From a bacterium (GTDB lineage Bacteria; UBP15; UBA6099; DSWB01): a DNA stretch of 5,725 nucleotides. Positions 2 to 5,595 of the stretch are shown in pieces. Location of the stretch: contig JAGUYV010000119.1 of NCBI GenBank assembly GCA_020061125.1, positions 1 to 5,725 of the forward strand, written 5' to 3'. The translations under genes and the position numbers were made by a program. Each line of letters begins with the position of its first letter. The stretch's first letter is position 1. The notes beneath the pieces are model-generated. The model was not told the origin of the DNA, made no database searches, and worked only from the letters and a program-made list of their open reading frames with translations.

Positions 2-2491
2 AAGCTCTCGGCGCAGGCCACCAACCAGGTCGGCCTCAAGTGCAACCTCAAGTCCGACAGCCGCTCCCTCATCGCCGACGGCCTCGACCCCAAGGAAGGA
101 TACGCCACCAAGGACGACACCCTGGTGGACCTGTACAAGCTCGACGCCGGCGAATACACCCCCGAGCACCTGGGCATCCGCGAAGGCGACTGGGTCGAGA
201 TCAAGGCCGAAGCCTTCTACAACGCGCAGGCCAACAACAATGAGTTCGGCGCCTGGACCACAGCCACAGGCAACGCCGCCGCAGGCCAGCAATTGTTCAG
301 CCTGATCGGCGCGTCCAATCTGCCCGTGGAAATCGGCGATCAGGGCGGCTTCTCCGTCCAGGTCGGCGCCACACTCTACACGGCAGCCAACCGCGTGAGC
401 GAGGACCCGGACCCGGACAACGACGGCGTCTACAACCTGGCCGCCAACGAATGGGTGTACAACTCCAAGACCGGAGAAGTCATCGTGGGCACAGCCGCCG
501 CGCTGAACGACGCCGTGACCATCAACTACCGCACCCGCAACCGCTGCGAAAACACCATGCCCTTCCAGACCGAGAAGTACTACTACTTCCAGGTCACCAA
601 CGACACGGACATAGCAGATCTCGAGACCGCCATCCAGAATGCGCTCAATGCGCTCGACGTGAACGGCACCATCAACGCCGAAGTCAAGTACGACACGGAC
701 GACGCGCAGTTCTACATCTACAACAACACCGTGGCCGACTCCCAGGACTGGAACGAAATCAAGGTCAGCATCAACGCCGCGTCCGGCAGCGCCATCCGCC
801 AGGGCTTCATCCTGCAGGACAGCACGGACAAGACCGTGAACGGCACGCGCCTTAGCCTGGTCAACGGCGGCCTGGGCGGCAATATGGAAGCCGAAAACCT
901 GGGCATCATTGATTACCAGACCGACACCCTGGCCCTGGACTACGGCGATGTGGACAACTCCGAGCAGATCTACGCCGAAGTTGTGAACACCCGCCTCTCC
1001 ACCTCTTACAACCCCGGCGTGCAGGGCGGCGCACTCGCTCTGAACGAGTGGACCACCGGCTACACCCAGGGCAACGCCCTGCTCATGATCAATCAGACCG
1101 ACAAGCTGTCCGTGGACGGCACCTACTGGTCCCGCGTGGACTTCTTCTCCGGCGCGGCCAACGAGTATGTGATCAGCGACGCGGGCGGCACGATCCCCCC
1201 GGTGATTTACTTCAACACCACCGCCGGCCTGGCGCCCGCCGCCAACCAGAACATCGTGCTCGAGTTCCGCCCGTCCAACGCCACGGTCGTGCAGCTCACC
1301 GAGAACACCGGCTACACCATTGACTCCTCCACGGGCAACATCAGCCTCGTGTGGAGCGGCGCCAACACCGATCAGAACCGCGCCCTCATGGTCAACGGCG
1401 CAGGGCTGCTCACGGGCCAGATCAAGATCACGGCCCAGTACACCACCGAGGACCGCCTGCTCGCCGCTCCCTCGACCCTCATGGACAGCCGCTGGGCCGA
1501 CTTCGTGCAGGCCTACGCCGAAGTGAGCGAAGGCGGCGACGGCAAGGCCCGCACCGACTTCAACAACATGTGGGGCACCATCAACAACAAGGTCGGCTCC
1601 ACGCCGGACCCGCTCATCTACGACCAGGCCACCAGCACGCAGCCCACGCAGAAAGGCTCGAGCCGCTTCCTGTCCGCGGACACGCACCGCACCTCCATCA
1701 ATGTGTACGACTCCCTGGGCGCGATACACGAGCTGCAGTTCGTGTTCACCCATGTGGGATCGTACTATGACACGGCCAAGCAGGTGCGCTACACCAACCA
1801 GTGGTTCTGGCGCGCCGAGCTGCCCTACAGCGATGTGTTCTCCTTCGACAGCATGGACAACATTGACGCCGTGGCCCAGGGCGTGTCCCGCCTCAAGGGT
1901 TCGCTCACCTTCGACGACAACGGCCTGCTGCAGTCCACCGCGCTCGCCGGCAACACCGGCCCCATCATGTTCGACCCCTCGCCCATCGGTCTCAACGGCA
2001 ACTCCACCCACAATGTGGACACCTTGAGCATCGAGGTTGACTTCGACGGTCACACCACCAACCTGCTGGGCGGCGTGACCCAGTACGCCTCGGATTCCAC
2101 CACCCTGGCCTACGAGCAGAACGGCTGGGCCATGGGCATCCTGCAGACCTTCGCCGTTGACCAGCTCGGCATCATTCAGGGCAGCTACTCCAACGGCGTG
2201 GTCAAGCCCATCGGCCAGCTCGCCCTGGCCATCTTCCCCAACGAAGACGGCCTCACCAAGCTCGGCGCCAACCTGTGGGACCAGTCCGCCAACACCGGCA
2301 CCCCGACCCTGGTGCCCGCGTATGTGGGCGGCGCAGGATCGGTCATGGGCGGCGCCCTCGAAATGTCCAATGTGGACATCGCCGAGGAATTCACAAAGAT
2401 GATCATCACGGAGCGCGGCTTCCAGGCCAACTCTCGCATCATCACGACTTCCGACGAGATGCTGACCGAGGTGCTCAACCTCAAACGCTGA
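2..2491 (+). CDS. flgE: Flagellar hook protein FlgE, 5'-truncated by window edge, very large variant
   Basis: This is the C-terminal 829 residues of the hook protein, which polymerises outside the cell into the curved joint between rod and filament. The frame is open from base 2 with no start, so the N-terminus lies upstream. Numbering from the first complete codon, residues 6-20 resemble the conserved 'NLdS' stretch of FlgE. Residues 566-573 (INVYDSLG) match the conserved 'tvYDSlGn' motif. Residues about 785-829, including GFQANSRIITTSDEML near the end, are the classic C-terminal D0/D1 helix of rod/hook/HAP proteins. Between the first two motifs, where ordinary FlgE has only a few residues, lie about 540 residues rich in Asn, Thr, Ala and Asp. 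These are presumably extra surface domains in the D2/D3 position. They contain a DxDxDG-type loop (137-142) and two similar beta-rich stretches (152-181 and 438-485). Only two cysteines are present, at 14 and 182. The gene ends at an intrinsic terminator, so it closes its own transcription unit. The family call is firm; the fold of the insertion is unknown. Confidence 0.93.
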   Translation, partial: KLSAQATNQVGLKCNLKSDSRSLIADGLDPKEGYATKDDTLVDLYKLDAGEYTPEHLGIREGDWVEIKAEAFYNAQANNNEFGAWTTATGNAAAGQQLFSLIGASNLPVEIGDQGGFSVQVGATLYTAANRVSEDPDPDNDGVYNLAANEWVYNSKTGEVIVGTAAALNDAVTINYRTRNRCENTMPFQTEKYYYFQVTNDTDIADLETAIQNALNALDVNGTINAEVKYDTDDAQFYIYNNTVADSQDWNEIKVSINAASGSAIRQGFILQDSTDKTVNGTRLSLVNGGLGGNMEAENLGIIDYQTDTLALDYGDVDNSEQIYAEVVNTRLSTSYNPGVQGGALALNEWTTGYTQGNALLMINQTDKLSVDGTYWSRVDFFSGAANEYVISDAGGTIPPVIYFNTTAGLAPAANQNIVLEFRPSNATVVQLTENTGYTIDSSTGNISLVWSGANTDQNRALMVNGAGLLTGQIKITAQYTTEDRLLAAPSTLMDSRWADFVQAYAEVSEGGDGKARTDFNNMWGTINNKVGSTPDPLIYDQATSTQPTQKGSSRFLSADTHRTSINVYDSLGAIHELQFVFTHVGSYYDTAKQVRYTNQWFWRAELPYSDVFSFDSMDNIDAVAQGVSRLKGSLTFDDNGLLQSTALAGNTGPIMFDPSPIGLNGNSTHNVDTLSIEVDFDGHTTNLLGGVTQYASDSTTLAYEQNGWAMGILQTFAVDQLGIIQGSYSNGVVKPIGQLALAIFPNEDGLTKLGANLWDQSANTGTPTLVPAYVGGAGSVMGGALEMSNVDIAEEFTKMIITERGFQANSRIITTSDEMLTEVLNLKR

Positions 2492-2589: not shown

Positions 2590-2601
2590 TTCTGGTACAA
2601 T
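2575..2601 (+). promoter_or_regulatory. Candidate sigma-70-type promoter with extended -10, driving the DUF115 gene
   Basis: The -10 hexamer is TACAAT (2596-2601), preceded by TGG (2593-2595), which makes a full extended -10 (TGnTACAAT). A weak -35, TTGATC (2575-2580), lies 15 bp upstream; this short spacing is tolerated when the extended -10 is present. Initiation would fall near 2608, just after the flgE terminator and about 20 bases before the start codon at 2630. The placement fits well, but no start site has been measured. Confidence 0.55.
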
Positions 2602-2629
2602 GAAGCGGACAAAAGGAACCGCACAGGCC

Positions 2630-3538
2630 ATGACCACGGACCCGCAAGACCCCCAGGCGTTCAACCCCGGCGACGCCATCCTCAAAACCTCGCAGATGGG
2701 CGACATCGTGGCCCAGCGCGGCAAGTGGCTGCACAGCATCCGAAACAACCTGGCGGTCATCAACAAAAGCAAAGACATCACATACCTCAACAACCTGTTC
2801 CAGGGCCTGCCCGGCATCGTGGTGGGCGCCGGTCCCAGCCTGCAGAAGAACATTGATCTGCTCGCGGAGCGCGCCGCGCAATATCCCCTGTTCTGCACGG
2901 ACCGCGCCTTCGCCATGCTTCACGAAAAAGGCGTGATCCCCGAGTTCACCGTGGCCGTGGACTTCCAGGACATCGTGGCGGATTTCTTCAAAGGCATGCC
3001 CGTGCACAAATCCATCCTCCTGGCCTCGGTTAAGGTGAGCCGCAAGCTCGTGGACCTGCCCTGGATGGAGCGCCTGTTTTTTCTGGTGCTGGACAGCGAC
3101 ACGCAGTTCAACGAGGCCATGGCCAACCTCACGAACCGGCGCGTGGCCGGCATCCCCGGCGCCATCATCTGCGGCAACAGCGCCTACCTGCTCGCGCGCT
3201 TCGCGGGCTGCAACCCCATCACCTTCTGCGGCTGCGACATGAGCATGCCCGAGCCGAGCAAAAACCCGCGGGACATCAACTACGAAGCCCAGGGCCTGGA
3301 CGGCGAAAAAATCTACTCCCTGCCCGGATACCTGGCCGGACACGAGTGGCTTCTGCGCCACCTGCACCTTGACAACGAAGTGCAATCCGGTAAAGTGAAG
3401 GTGTTTAACTCCACCGAAGGGGGAATCATGTACGGCGAACACCTGCCCCCGCTCACCATGCGCGAGTTTCTCGACGCATATCCGGGTTCGGACAAAAGCC
3501 TTATGATGCAAATCCGAAAAAGATTGGATCTTTACTGA
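2630..3538 (+). CDS. DUF115 / MptE-like (Maf-related) protein, 302 aa
   Basis: This protein belongs to the DUF115 (PF01973) family. The family groups archaeal 6-hydroxymethylpterin pyrophosphokinase MptE with the catalytic core of flagellar Maf proteins, which transfer nonulosonic (pseudaminic or related) acids to flagellin. Hallmarks seen: the nucleotide-binding-like turn VVGAGPSL (64-71); CTDRAFAMLHEKGVIPEFTVAVD (89-111), the family's 'atD.al..L...gI.PD..v..D' block; GNSAYLLARFAGCNPITFCGCD (182-203); and NSTEGGIMYGEHLPPLTMREF (260-280). No signal peptide or membrane segment is evident, so it is probably cytoplasmic. At 302 residues it is about half the length of typical bacterial Maf proteins and consists of little more than the core domain. 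The ATG at 2630 is chosen because the in-frame ATG at 2600 overlaps the candidate -10 box. AAGGA at 2613-2617 lies 12 bases upstream of 2630, which is slightly long spacing. Its place between flgE and flbD suggests a motility-linked role such as modifying a flagellar protein. The donor, acceptor and reaction are not established. Confidence 0.85.
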   Translation: MTTDPQDPQAFNPGDAILKTSQMGDIVAQRGKWLHSIRNNLAVINKSKDITYLNNLFQGLPGIVVGAGPSLQKNIDLLAERAAQYPLFCTDRAFAMLHEKGVIPEFTVAVDFQDIVADFFKGMPVHKSILLASVKVSRKLVDLPWMERLFFLVLDSDTQFNEAMANLTNRRVAGIPGAIICGNSAYLLARFAGCNPITFCGCDMSMPEPSKNPRDINYEAQGLDGEKIYSLPGYLAGHEWLLRHLHLDNEVQSGKVKVFNSTEGGIMYGEHLPPLTMREFLDAYPGSDKSLMMQIRKRLDLY

Positions 3539-3581: not shown

Positions 3582-3785
3582 ATGATAGAACTTAAGAAAC
3601 TCAACGATCAGGCGTTCATTGTGAACTCGGATCTCATCGAATTCATCGAAAAAACCCCGGACACGGTGATCACCCTCACCACGGGGCGCAAAATCGTTGT
3701 GCGCGAGTCTGTTGACGAAGTTGTAAAAAAGGTGATAAAATACCGGCGATTTATTAATGAAGGCATTGCCGTGAAGACGGAATAA
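3582..3785 (+). CDS. flbD: FlbD / SwrD family small flagellar protein, 67 aa
   Basis: This is a small protein of the PF06289 family, called FlbD in many genomes and SwrD in Bacillus subtilis. In B. subtilis it is known to increase the power of the flagellar motor during swarming. It is not the NtrC-like FlbD of Caulobacter. The sequence shows the family signature throughout: MIELKKLNDQAFIVNSDLIE at the N-terminus, then EKTPDTVITLTTGRKIVVRE (23-42) and the VDEVV helix. Its 67 residues are the usual family length. ATG 3582 is chosen because AGGAG (3568-3572) sits 9 bases upstream and translation from here begins exactly at the conserved N-terminus. The ATG at 3552 would put the ribosome site inside the coding region and add ten unrelated residues. 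The gene follows the DUF115 gene by 43 bp and precedes fliL by 77 bp. In many bacteria the next genes would be motA and motB, which are missing here. Confidence 0.9.
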   Translation: MIELKKLNDQAFIVNSDLIEFIEKTPDTVITLTTGRKIVVRESVDEVVKKVIKYRRFINEGIAVKTE

Positions 3786-3796
3786 ATTGATTTGCA

Positions 3797-3812
3797 TGGC
3801 TTTTTTATTGTG
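3797..3812 (+). promoter_or_regulatory. Sigma-54-like promoter element upstream of fliL
   Basis: TGGC (3797-3800) and TTGTG (3808-3812) match the -24 and -12 elements of RpoN promoters (TGGCAC-N5-TTGCW), with the required GG-N10-GN spacing. The deviation is GT instead of the near-invariant GC at -12. Initiation would fall near 3822, about 40 bases before the fliL start. Sigma-54 control of mid-class flagellar genes is well established in many polar flagellates, so the context is favourable. The -12 mismatch keeps this tentative. Confidence 0.35.
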
Positions 3813-3841
3813 TCAACCCATACTGGAACAACGAGACACAA
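3808..3841. repeat. Perfect 7-bp inverted repeat in the fliL leader
   Basis: TTGTGTC (3808-3814) and GACACAA (3835-3841) are perfect inverted arms with a 20-base spacer. The left arm overlaps the -12 part of the sigma-54-like element, and the right arm ends 7 bases before the fliL Shine-Dalgarno. It could be an operator for a dimeric regulator or an RNA hairpin in read-through transcripts from flbD. The repeat is seen directly; its function is unknown. Confidence 0.5.
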
Positions 3842-3862
3842 CCTAAACAAGGAGGCAGGCAC

Positions 3863-4474
3863 ATGGCAGAAGAGGAAGTCTTGACGGAGCAGGAAGCGCC
3901 TCAAAAGAAAGCCCGCAGCGGCATGAATCCGATCATCATCCTCGGCGTCGTGATTCTCGGTTTCATCATCATCGCCGTTCTGATCATCATGCTCATGGGC
4001 AAGGTCGGCGGCAAGTCCGAAGCCCCGGTCAACACCACCATTGAAATCGAAGCCTGTGAAGACAAATACAAGGTGTTCGTATTCGGCGAAGACCAGCTCA
4101 AGTTCAAACTCAAAGACAAGCAGGAATACCTCATGACCAAGGTGGCGCTGTGCGTGCCCACGGAAACCTCGGACGACGCGCTCAACACCAAGGTGCCGCT
4201 CATGAAGGCCATCATGACCCAGTACTTCCTGCGCTTCACCAGCGAAGATGTGTTCGGCCCCCAGAAGCCCGCCGAAGACCTGGCCCCGGCTGAAGAAAAG
4301 CAGACCCAAGACATCTTCACCGACGGCGCGGTTGACGACATCCCCGACACGCCGGAGGAAAAATTCAAGCTCATCAAAAAGGGCTTGAAAAACGAACTCA
4401 ACGGCACCTTCAAGGAACTGGGCATCATAGATGTGTACCTGTTCGAGTACGAGCCGGCGAGAACACCGTTCTGA
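3863..4474 (+). CDS. fliL: Flagellar basal body-associated protein FliL, 203 aa
   Basis: FliL is a single-pass inner-membrane protein that surrounds or supports the MotA/MotB stator at the flagellar base. Seen here: a short charged cytoplasmic tail (1-20), one strong transmembrane helix (about 23-46, NPIIILGVVILGFIIIAVLI onward), and a periplasmic domain. That domain has the family pattern of a beta strand with 'YLMTKVALCV' (89-98), a helix around VPLMKAIMTQYFLRFTSEDV (111-130), and a C-terminal 'LKNELNGTFKELGIIDVYLFEY' stretch (175-196) that matches the 'iN..l..g.v..Vyf..f' end of FliL. Between residues 131 and 165 lies an acidic, Pro-rich insertion not usual in the family. Two cysteines are present at 65 and 97. 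The start is firm: AAGGAGG (3849-3855) is 7 bases before ATG 3863. The 32-bp gap to fliM and their standard pairing indicate one operon. The sequence is divergent, so the family call rests on the membrane topology, the C-terminal motif and the position next to fliM. Confidence 0.8.
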   Translation: MAEEEVLTEQEAPQKKARSGMNPIIILGVVILGFIIIAVLIIMLMGKVGGKSEAPVNTTIEIEACEDKYKVFVFGEDQLKFKLKDKQEYLMTKVALCVPTETSDDALNTKVPLMKAIMTQYFLRFTSEDVFGPQKPAEDLAPAEEKQTQDIFTDGAVDDIPDTPEEKFKLIKKGLKNELNGTFKELGIIDVYLFEYEPARTPF

Positions 4475-4506: not shown

Positions 4507-5595
4507 TTGGGCGATTTTCTGAACCAGGATGCCATAGATGATTTGATATCCCAGATAGGCGACGACTCGGGCGGGGGCGGCTCCTCGCTCGGAGGCGGCG
4601 ACGATTTCGGCCTGGGCGACCTGGGCGATCTGGGAGTGGACATGCCCGCGGCGCCCTCCGGCGGCGGAAGGGCCGCTTCCCCCGTGGTCCCCGCGGACAC
4701 GGACAAGGATGTGCGCCCCTACGATTTCGCCCGCGCCTCCAAGTTCTCCAAAGATCAAATCCGCACCATCCAGATGATCCACGAAACTTTTGCGCGCCTT
4801 TTCGCCAGCACCCTGGCCGCAAAGATCCGCGCCCTCACCAAAATCAAGGTCGTGTCCGTGGAGGAAGTCACCTACGAGGACTTCATCAACACGGTCTCCA
4901 ACCCGTCCATCATCTCCATCTTCTCCATGCCGCCCATGGAGGGCAACGCCGTGCTCGACATCAGCCCGCAGATCGGGTTCCCGGTCATGGACCGCCTTCT
5001 GGGCGGCGCGGGCGAGGAAGACGAGGAAGCGCGCGAACTCACCGACATCGAAGTCAACATCATGGAGAGCGTGCTCCACGACGCCCTGGGCTTCATCAAA
5101 GAAGCCTGGGCCAATGTCATTGACATCAACCCCAAACTGGAATTGCTTGAAAGCAACCCATACTTCGTGCAGGTCGTGCCGCCCTCCGAAATGATCGTGC
5201 TCGTGAACCTCGAAGCCGAAGTGGGCGAAAAGACCGGCCGCATGAACCTGGCCATCCCTTATGTGATGCTCGAAACCGTACTGCCCAAGTTGAGCATCCA
5301 GCAGTGGTTCTCCACATACCGCCGCACCGTGTCTCCGGACACCCCGCTCAAGGTGGAGGAGCGCCTGCTGAAAACCGCGGTGCAGTTCACGGTCCAGCTC
5401 GGCAGAACCAACATCTCGCTCAAGGATTTCCTGAACCTGGGCGAGGGCGACATCATCCAGGTCAATTCCAAGGTCAGCGACGAATTGCCCATATTCGTGG
5501 GGGATCGCATAAAATTCAAGGGGCGGCCCGGCGTGGTGGGCAAGCGCATCGCAATCCAGACGACATCCGTGGTCAAGGATGTCGAAGAAGTCTGA
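4507..5595 (+). CDS. fliM: Flagellar motor switch protein FliM, 362 aa, TTG start
   Basis: FliM is the C-ring switch protein. Its N-terminus binds phosphorylated CheY, its middle domain contacts FliG, and its C-terminal domain packs with FliN. Seen here: an N-terminal CheY-P-binding-type segment, MGDFLNQDAIDDLISQ (1-16), close to the 'LSQ.EIDALL' consensus; a Gly/Asp-rich linker (about 20-65); and the FliM core from VRPYDFARASKFSKDQIRTI (69-88). The core includes IHETFARLFASTLA (91-104) and the LLGGAG loop (164-169), equivalent to the GGxG motif needed for FliG binding. A C-terminal SPOA domain follows (about 285-352, with LKDFLNLGEGDIIQV at 305-319). The length is somewhat above the usual 330 or so because of the linker. 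The TTG start is chosen because it lies 7 bases after a strong Shine-Dalgarno and yields the MGD N-terminus also found in enterobacterial FliM. A later start would remove the CheY-binding segment. The gene is in an operon with fliL. Confidence 0.97.
   Translation: MGDFLNQDAIDDLISQIGDDSGGGGSSLGGGDDFGLGDLGDLGVDMPAAPSGGGRAASPVVPADTDKDVRPYDFARASKFSKDQIRTIQMIHETFARLFASTLAAKIRALTKIKVVSVEEVTYEDFINTVSNPSIISIFSMPPMEGNAVLDISPQIGFPVMDRLLGGAGEEDEEARELTDIEVNIMESVLHDALGFIKEAWANVIDINPKLELLESNPYFVQVVPPSEMIVLVNLEAEVGEKTGRMNLAIPYVMLETVLPKLSIQQWFSTYRRTVSPDTPLKVEERLLKTAVQFTVQLGRTNISLKDFLNLGEGDIIQVNSKVSDELPIFVGDRIKFKGRPGVVGKRIAIQTTSVVKDVEEV
4612..4638 (+). repeat. 9-bp tandem repeat in the fliM linker
   Basis: Three consecutive 9-base units, CTGGGCGAC, CTGGGCGAT and the degenerate CTGGGAGTG, encode LGD-LGD-LGV in the flexible linker between the CheY-binding segment and the core. 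In-frame units of this kind could change the linker length by slippage. Confidence 0.6.

Follow-up and report, generated by a model that had tools for sequence, protein, structure and literature searches.

The hook protein FlgE encoded in the 5725 nucleotide window analysed here carries an insertion of approximately 540 residues between the two halves of its D2 domain and, at the edge of that insertion, a Lys and a Cys that align with the residues forming a lysinoalanine link between neighbouring hook subunits in the spirochete T. denticola. We consider it rather probable that this hook would combine two reinforcements, extra outer domains and lysinoalanine cross-links, outside the spirochetes.

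The hook protein gene and its neighbourhood

The window equals one entire contig (G000:C187), from a metagenome-assembled genome of 513 contigs that is 79% complete, and holds flgE, a Maf/PseD-like gene, flbD, a fliL-like gene and fliM, in the order of a hook gene cluster (Table 1). Judged against relatives, approximately 165 N-terminal residues are absent from the window FlgE. The remaining frame was recognized by Pfam, above the curated cut-offs, as FlgE_D2 (3.9e-15, 57 bits) and Flg_bbr_C (1.7e-16, 59.9 bits), the former at residues 560-708, i.e. only after the insertion, and the latter at the end, and it was also matched by the NCBIfam FlgE models. The N-terminal D0/D1 region with its conserved rod-type start is found in the six full-length relatives, the window's own lying beyond the contig edge. 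No second hook gene was found in the window's genome, where the other matches were short and to the shared C-terminal region.

Genes for a fliK-like product, flgD and TIGR02530 lie upstream of flgE in the relative L030. The genes motA/motB are absent between flbD and the fliL-like gene (window 3785-3863); three of the seven phylum genomes have a MotB_plug match on a different contig (G000:C50, G001 and G002). The Maf/PseD-like gene also lies between flgE and flbD in G001, and in G002 the place is taken by a gene that resembles it in size and start; these two loci are L197:5818-6714 and L196:5224-6123.

Table 1. Features of the window discussed in the text
Feature	Position	Strand	Remarks
flgE, hook protein, 3' part	2..2491	+	829 aa; 5' end beyond contig edge
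Lys corresponding to T. denticola FlgE Lys165 (cross-link lysine)	2..4	+	Profile alignment to PDB 6ndx; invariant K167
Cys corresponding to T. denticola FlgE Cys178 (cross-link cysteine)	41..43	+	13 residues after Lys
Asn corresponding to Asn179	44..46	+	Profile alignment; invariant N181
Inserted segment, approximately 540 aa, between the two D2 halves	53..1672	+	Alignments with relatives
First independently folding part of insertion, beta-rich with one helix	116..823	+	AlphaFold2 of the aligned L030 part
Baseplate_J-similar segment of insertion (tentative)	1088..1354	+	28.3 bits, E 1.9e-8
Thr corresponding to Thr334	2099..2101	+	Thr860 in L030; in window via alignment with relatives
Maf/PseD-like gene	2600-3538		Between flgE and flbD; PF01973; NCBIfam FlagModPseD 7.9e-12
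flbD	3582-3785		
fliL-like gene	3863-4474		
fliM	4507-5595		

The insertion in the hook protein

The initial annotation had drawn attention to the wide separation of two FlgE motifs, and this held: within a single open frame (2-2491), base 44 is the start of NLKSDS and base 1697 that of INVYDSLG, and 551 residues separate the L in CNL from the Y in YDS. The uniform base composition (GC 61-65% along the whole of flgE) and the N/T/A/D-rich character of the insertion (these four residues make up approximately 37% of it vs 30% elsewhere in the window FlgE) were likewise borne out. A hook protein with the insertion is encoded in all seven genomes examined from the small phylum to which the window belongs, all within one order, and as the insertion is common to these seven genomes an assembly artefact was ruled out. 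The six complete copies, at 980-1015 aa, are about twice the usual hook protein length, and the window frame shares 55-58% identity with them over its whole length. In the alignment of phylum members, parts of the insertion are conserved as strongly as the core.

A profile built solely from the insertion matched all seven phylum genomes and no other FlgE in the 386 genomes searched, consistent with the narrow-clade segment that had been proposed, and comparison of the insertion with FlgE frames gathered from other genomes gave no sequence match. No convincing match was found in Pfam (nothing above threshold), NCBIfam, PHROGs or the PDB sequences, and an internal duplication of the insertion was unsupported (hhalign probability 2.9%). 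The sole outside match of the profile in the 386 genomes, over approximately 100 residues, was to a Baseplate_J-type protein, L194 (1122-2879, minus strand), which comes from an unrelated genome and aligns with the second half of the insertion. The similarity of the insertion segment to Baseplate_J scored 28.3 bits vs no more than 4.9 bits in 500 shuffles, with E 1.3e-7 for the genome match, and a tblastn search with this segment found no match among phage proteins. We tentatively take the alignment to be real enough to note; it fixes neither the fold of the insertion nor its origin.

A full-length AlphaFold2 model built from the seven sequences was unusable (pLDDT 32) and the surface position of the insertion thus rests on homology, by which it would constitute extra domains on the outer surface of the hook. 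That the insertion folds separately was upheld for one part, L030 residues 205-425, which gave a fair AlphaFold2 model (mean pLDDT 74.8). A Foldseek search with this part returned no match with E < 0.001, and the best VIA-align Z scores, 5.1 and 5.0, were to phage baseplate proteins and lie in a range that the tool calls uninformative. The D3/D4 domains of Campylobacter jejuni were not among the fold matches listed for this part, which excludes nothing.

In order to place the insertion among hook proteins generally, the spacing between the two motifs was surveyed in 128 other diverse FlgE proteins carrying both. It is bimodal, with a median of 144 residues, values of 60 or less in 59 of the 128, at least 500 in eight, and a maximum of 707. 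Six proteins (L127, L128, L160, L108, L133 and L100) are likewise very long at the same site, at 575-707 residues, and in the first four the spacing (648-707 residues) exceeds that of the focal FlgE, to which they are unrelated in sequence here. Unlike the focal protein, none of the six matches the insertion sequence and none is listed with a Cys at its edge. The D3/D4 site of FlgE is known to be hypervariable: in C. jejuni it holds 386 residues that make up D3 and D4, and Caulobacter has a D3 of unrelated sequence or fold there (PMC5069557). Because the site is hypervariable and eight of the 128 spacings reach 500 or more, size alone is not unusual, and the architecture is ordinary, one more case at the known D3/D4 site.

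The C. jejuni FlgE (PDB 5jxl) is the best PDB match of the focal profile and is similar in the N- and C-terminal core, and its D3/D4 domains occupy the same site (PMC5069557), likewise between a short N-terminal and a long C-terminal part of D2. Its insertion is shorter (386 residues vs approximately 540 here), without sequence match to the focal one. Deletion and structural work suggests that D3/D4 make the C. jejuni hook stronger (PMC5097172). Hence, of the proposal of a lineage-specific expanded segment, the absence of matches outside the phylum and the part that folds alone are retained, and size as a distinguishing feature is not: all near relatives are equally long and the segment lies at the usual D3/D4 place of FlgE.

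The insertion may also be read as serving mainly for adhesive or glycosylated surface display with no strengthening of the hook, a reading that would suit its N/T/A/D-rich composition and the presence of the Maf/PseD-like gene after flgE in three phylum members, the product of which may glycosylate hook or filament proteins. However, no adhesin family matches the insertion and parts of it are conserved like the core, unlike a freely varying display segment, and we regard this reading as unlikely. Of the roles put forward initially, adhesion thus found no support, and for that of a modification target the neighbouring Maf/PseD-like gene speaks in favour and nothing further does.

Lysine and cysteine at the edge of the insertion

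The initial annotation missed a Lys and a Cys that flank NLKSDS, the Cys lying directly before it. In a profile alignment, Lys167 and Cys180 of L030 lie opposite Lys165 and residue 178 of T. denticola FlgE (6ndx), the latter being Ala in the crystal sequence and Cys in the natural proteins. In T. denticola, neighbouring subunits are joined by a lysinoalanine that arises autocatalytically from these residues, and both the link and motility are lost in mutants in C178, K165 or N179; in Leptospira, a Ser forms the link as well (PMC10691653). All seven phylum members have the Lys, Cys and Asn, with the same 13-residue Lys-Cys spacing as in T. denticola, and the residue equivalent to Thr334 is Thr in the six full-length relatives and in the window. 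Cys180 is the only cysteine of FlgE in each of the six full-length relatives, and the window copy has one more. The equivalent of Lys336 is unmatched (the full-length relatives have Arg and the window has Leu), and the FlaA-bearing genome G023 lacks Lys there too; in the available parts of the source, Lys336 is marked in the published alignment and is not among the residues reported as mutated (PMC10691653).

Spirochete FlgE, which is a neighbour of the focal FlgE in the tree, thus shares Lys, Cys, Asn and Thr in register; those listed are mostly 447-540 aa long and have no insertion of the focal size. C. jejuni FlgE has Ala at the place of the focal cross-link Cys. The Lys and Cys at the edge suggest a more concrete role for this region than could be offered initially, namely covalent stiffening of the hook.

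A lone Cys could instead make an inter-subunit disulfide or bind a metal, and an exposed single Cys on an extracellular polymer could indeed pair with that of a neighbour. This would leave the matched Lys, Asn and Thr unexplained, and the same residues give lysinoalanine in spirochetes (PMC10691653); we consider it very improbable.

Flagellum type and proposed mechanism

The FlaA sheath protein was found in none of the seven phylum genomes, whereas the periplasmic flagellum of spirochetes has FlaA, and FlgH, the outer-membrane ring protein, is present in six of the seven. Because FlaA is absent and FlgH is present in six, the flagella of this phylum are probably external.

We propose that the approximately 540 residues in the D2 loop would form extra domains outside the hook tube and that these could add subunit-subunit contacts, as D3/D4 of C. 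jejuni do. In the assembled hook, the Cys with which D2 begins would lose its sulfur to give dehydroalanine, to which the Lys that ends D1 of the neighbouring subunit would add, producing a lysinoalanine weld as in spirochetes. The extra domains and the cross-link together would then stiffen the hook of an external flagellum. Formation of the cross-link in the focal hook is predicted here from the aligned residues. If this is correct, the insertion adds a natural case of two known ways of strengthening a hook in one protein.

Distribution of the Lys/Cys pair

In a first survey of FlgE from approximately 150 diverse genomes, 16 sequences had Cys at the place of position 180, including six from the focal phylum, and all 16 have Lys; where T. 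denticola has Thr334, these Cys-bearing FlgE all carry Thr or Ser. Ser occupies the Cys place in 17 sequences, 11 of which have Lys. After removal of duplicate loci and with a single count for the focal phylum, the others divide into six with Lys and 99 without. The association of Lys with Cys, with the focal phylum again counted once, had a Fisher p of 1.6e-11, a test that ignores relatedness. As a positive control, K-x12-C-N was found in 29 of 29 FlgE of a phylum that includes a genome with FlaA. This phylum was taken to be Spirochaetota because FlaA is present and one sequence is identical to that of T. denticola over the aligned stretch bar the mutated residue. Two controls gave the anticipated residues: the FlaA-positive genome G309 has Lys/Cys, and the FlaA-positive G023, of the same phylum, has Lys/Ser, as published for Leptospira.

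Judged from the alignments, the Lys/Cys pair is present also in other FlaA-negative lineages. FlaA is absent from the other Cys-bearing genomes G361, G326, G142, G279, G140, G228, G161, G264 and G125. The phylum of G361 is not the spirochete phylum, as it includes only four genomes; the others were termed non-spirochete on the absence of FlaA alone.

For the phylogenetic analysis, the three tested columns were omitted from FlgE tree building. FastTree grouped the focal FlgE with the spirochetes and with sequences of G361, G252, G116, G379, G308, G022, G125 and G264 in a 46-member clade (support 83), and all 46 have Lys together with either Cys (39) or Ser (7). A short IQ-TREE quick run recovered the same group, the union with the spirochetes having a support of 45 and the inner groups around the focal phylum 85-89. 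Further Cys-bearing FlgE lie elsewhere in the tree, on which Cys changes at least 7-8 times.

These data also bear on whether the insertion provides large outer domains only, with the Lys and Cys simply inherited and non-cross-linking, the Cys being a tolerated small residue at a place usually taken by Gly, Ala or Ser. Most FlgE have Gly or Ala at the Cys place, and Lys is frequent beside Gly in one phylum (that of G326), with the consequence that only the Lys and Cys taken together are informative. A tree-aware pair test gave no opposite case and had too few pairs, and was not significant (p 0.125-0.25). Against this, hook proteins otherwise avoid Cys: 114 of 133 FlgE without Cys180 have no Cys at all, and it is the sole Cys in 47 of the 49 that carry it. 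In addition, the focal phylum retains this Cys as an invariant and unique one despite divergence to 55-58% identity, and Cys without Lys never occurs among the 49 Cys-bearing sequences of the tree. We consider non-cross-linking residues somewhat unlikely.

Hook lysinoalanine has been presented as a feature of spirochetes, and its formation without an enzyme proposed as a drug target specific to them, in a study that retrieved FlgE from all bacteria and analysed spirochete sequences only (PMC10691653); a review likewise assigns the reaction to spirochetes (PMC9254593). Going by that review and the available parts of PMC10691653, the Lys/Cys cross-link trait appears to be unreported outside the spirochetes. 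Whether hook lysinoalanine belongs to a wider FlgE clade and several lineages with external flagella, here together with giant outer domains, and is not tied to spirochetes or periplasmic flagella, is in our estimation an evenly balanced question. If it does, two ideas would need revision, namely that the link arose to serve periplasmic flagella and that the drug target is specific to spirochetes, and recombinant FlgE from non-pathogens could be used to study lysinoalanine chemistry.

One sequence, L093 (G140), has Lys and Cys while its two tree neighbours have Thr/Ala and Thr/Ser, and this looks like a joint gain of the two residues.
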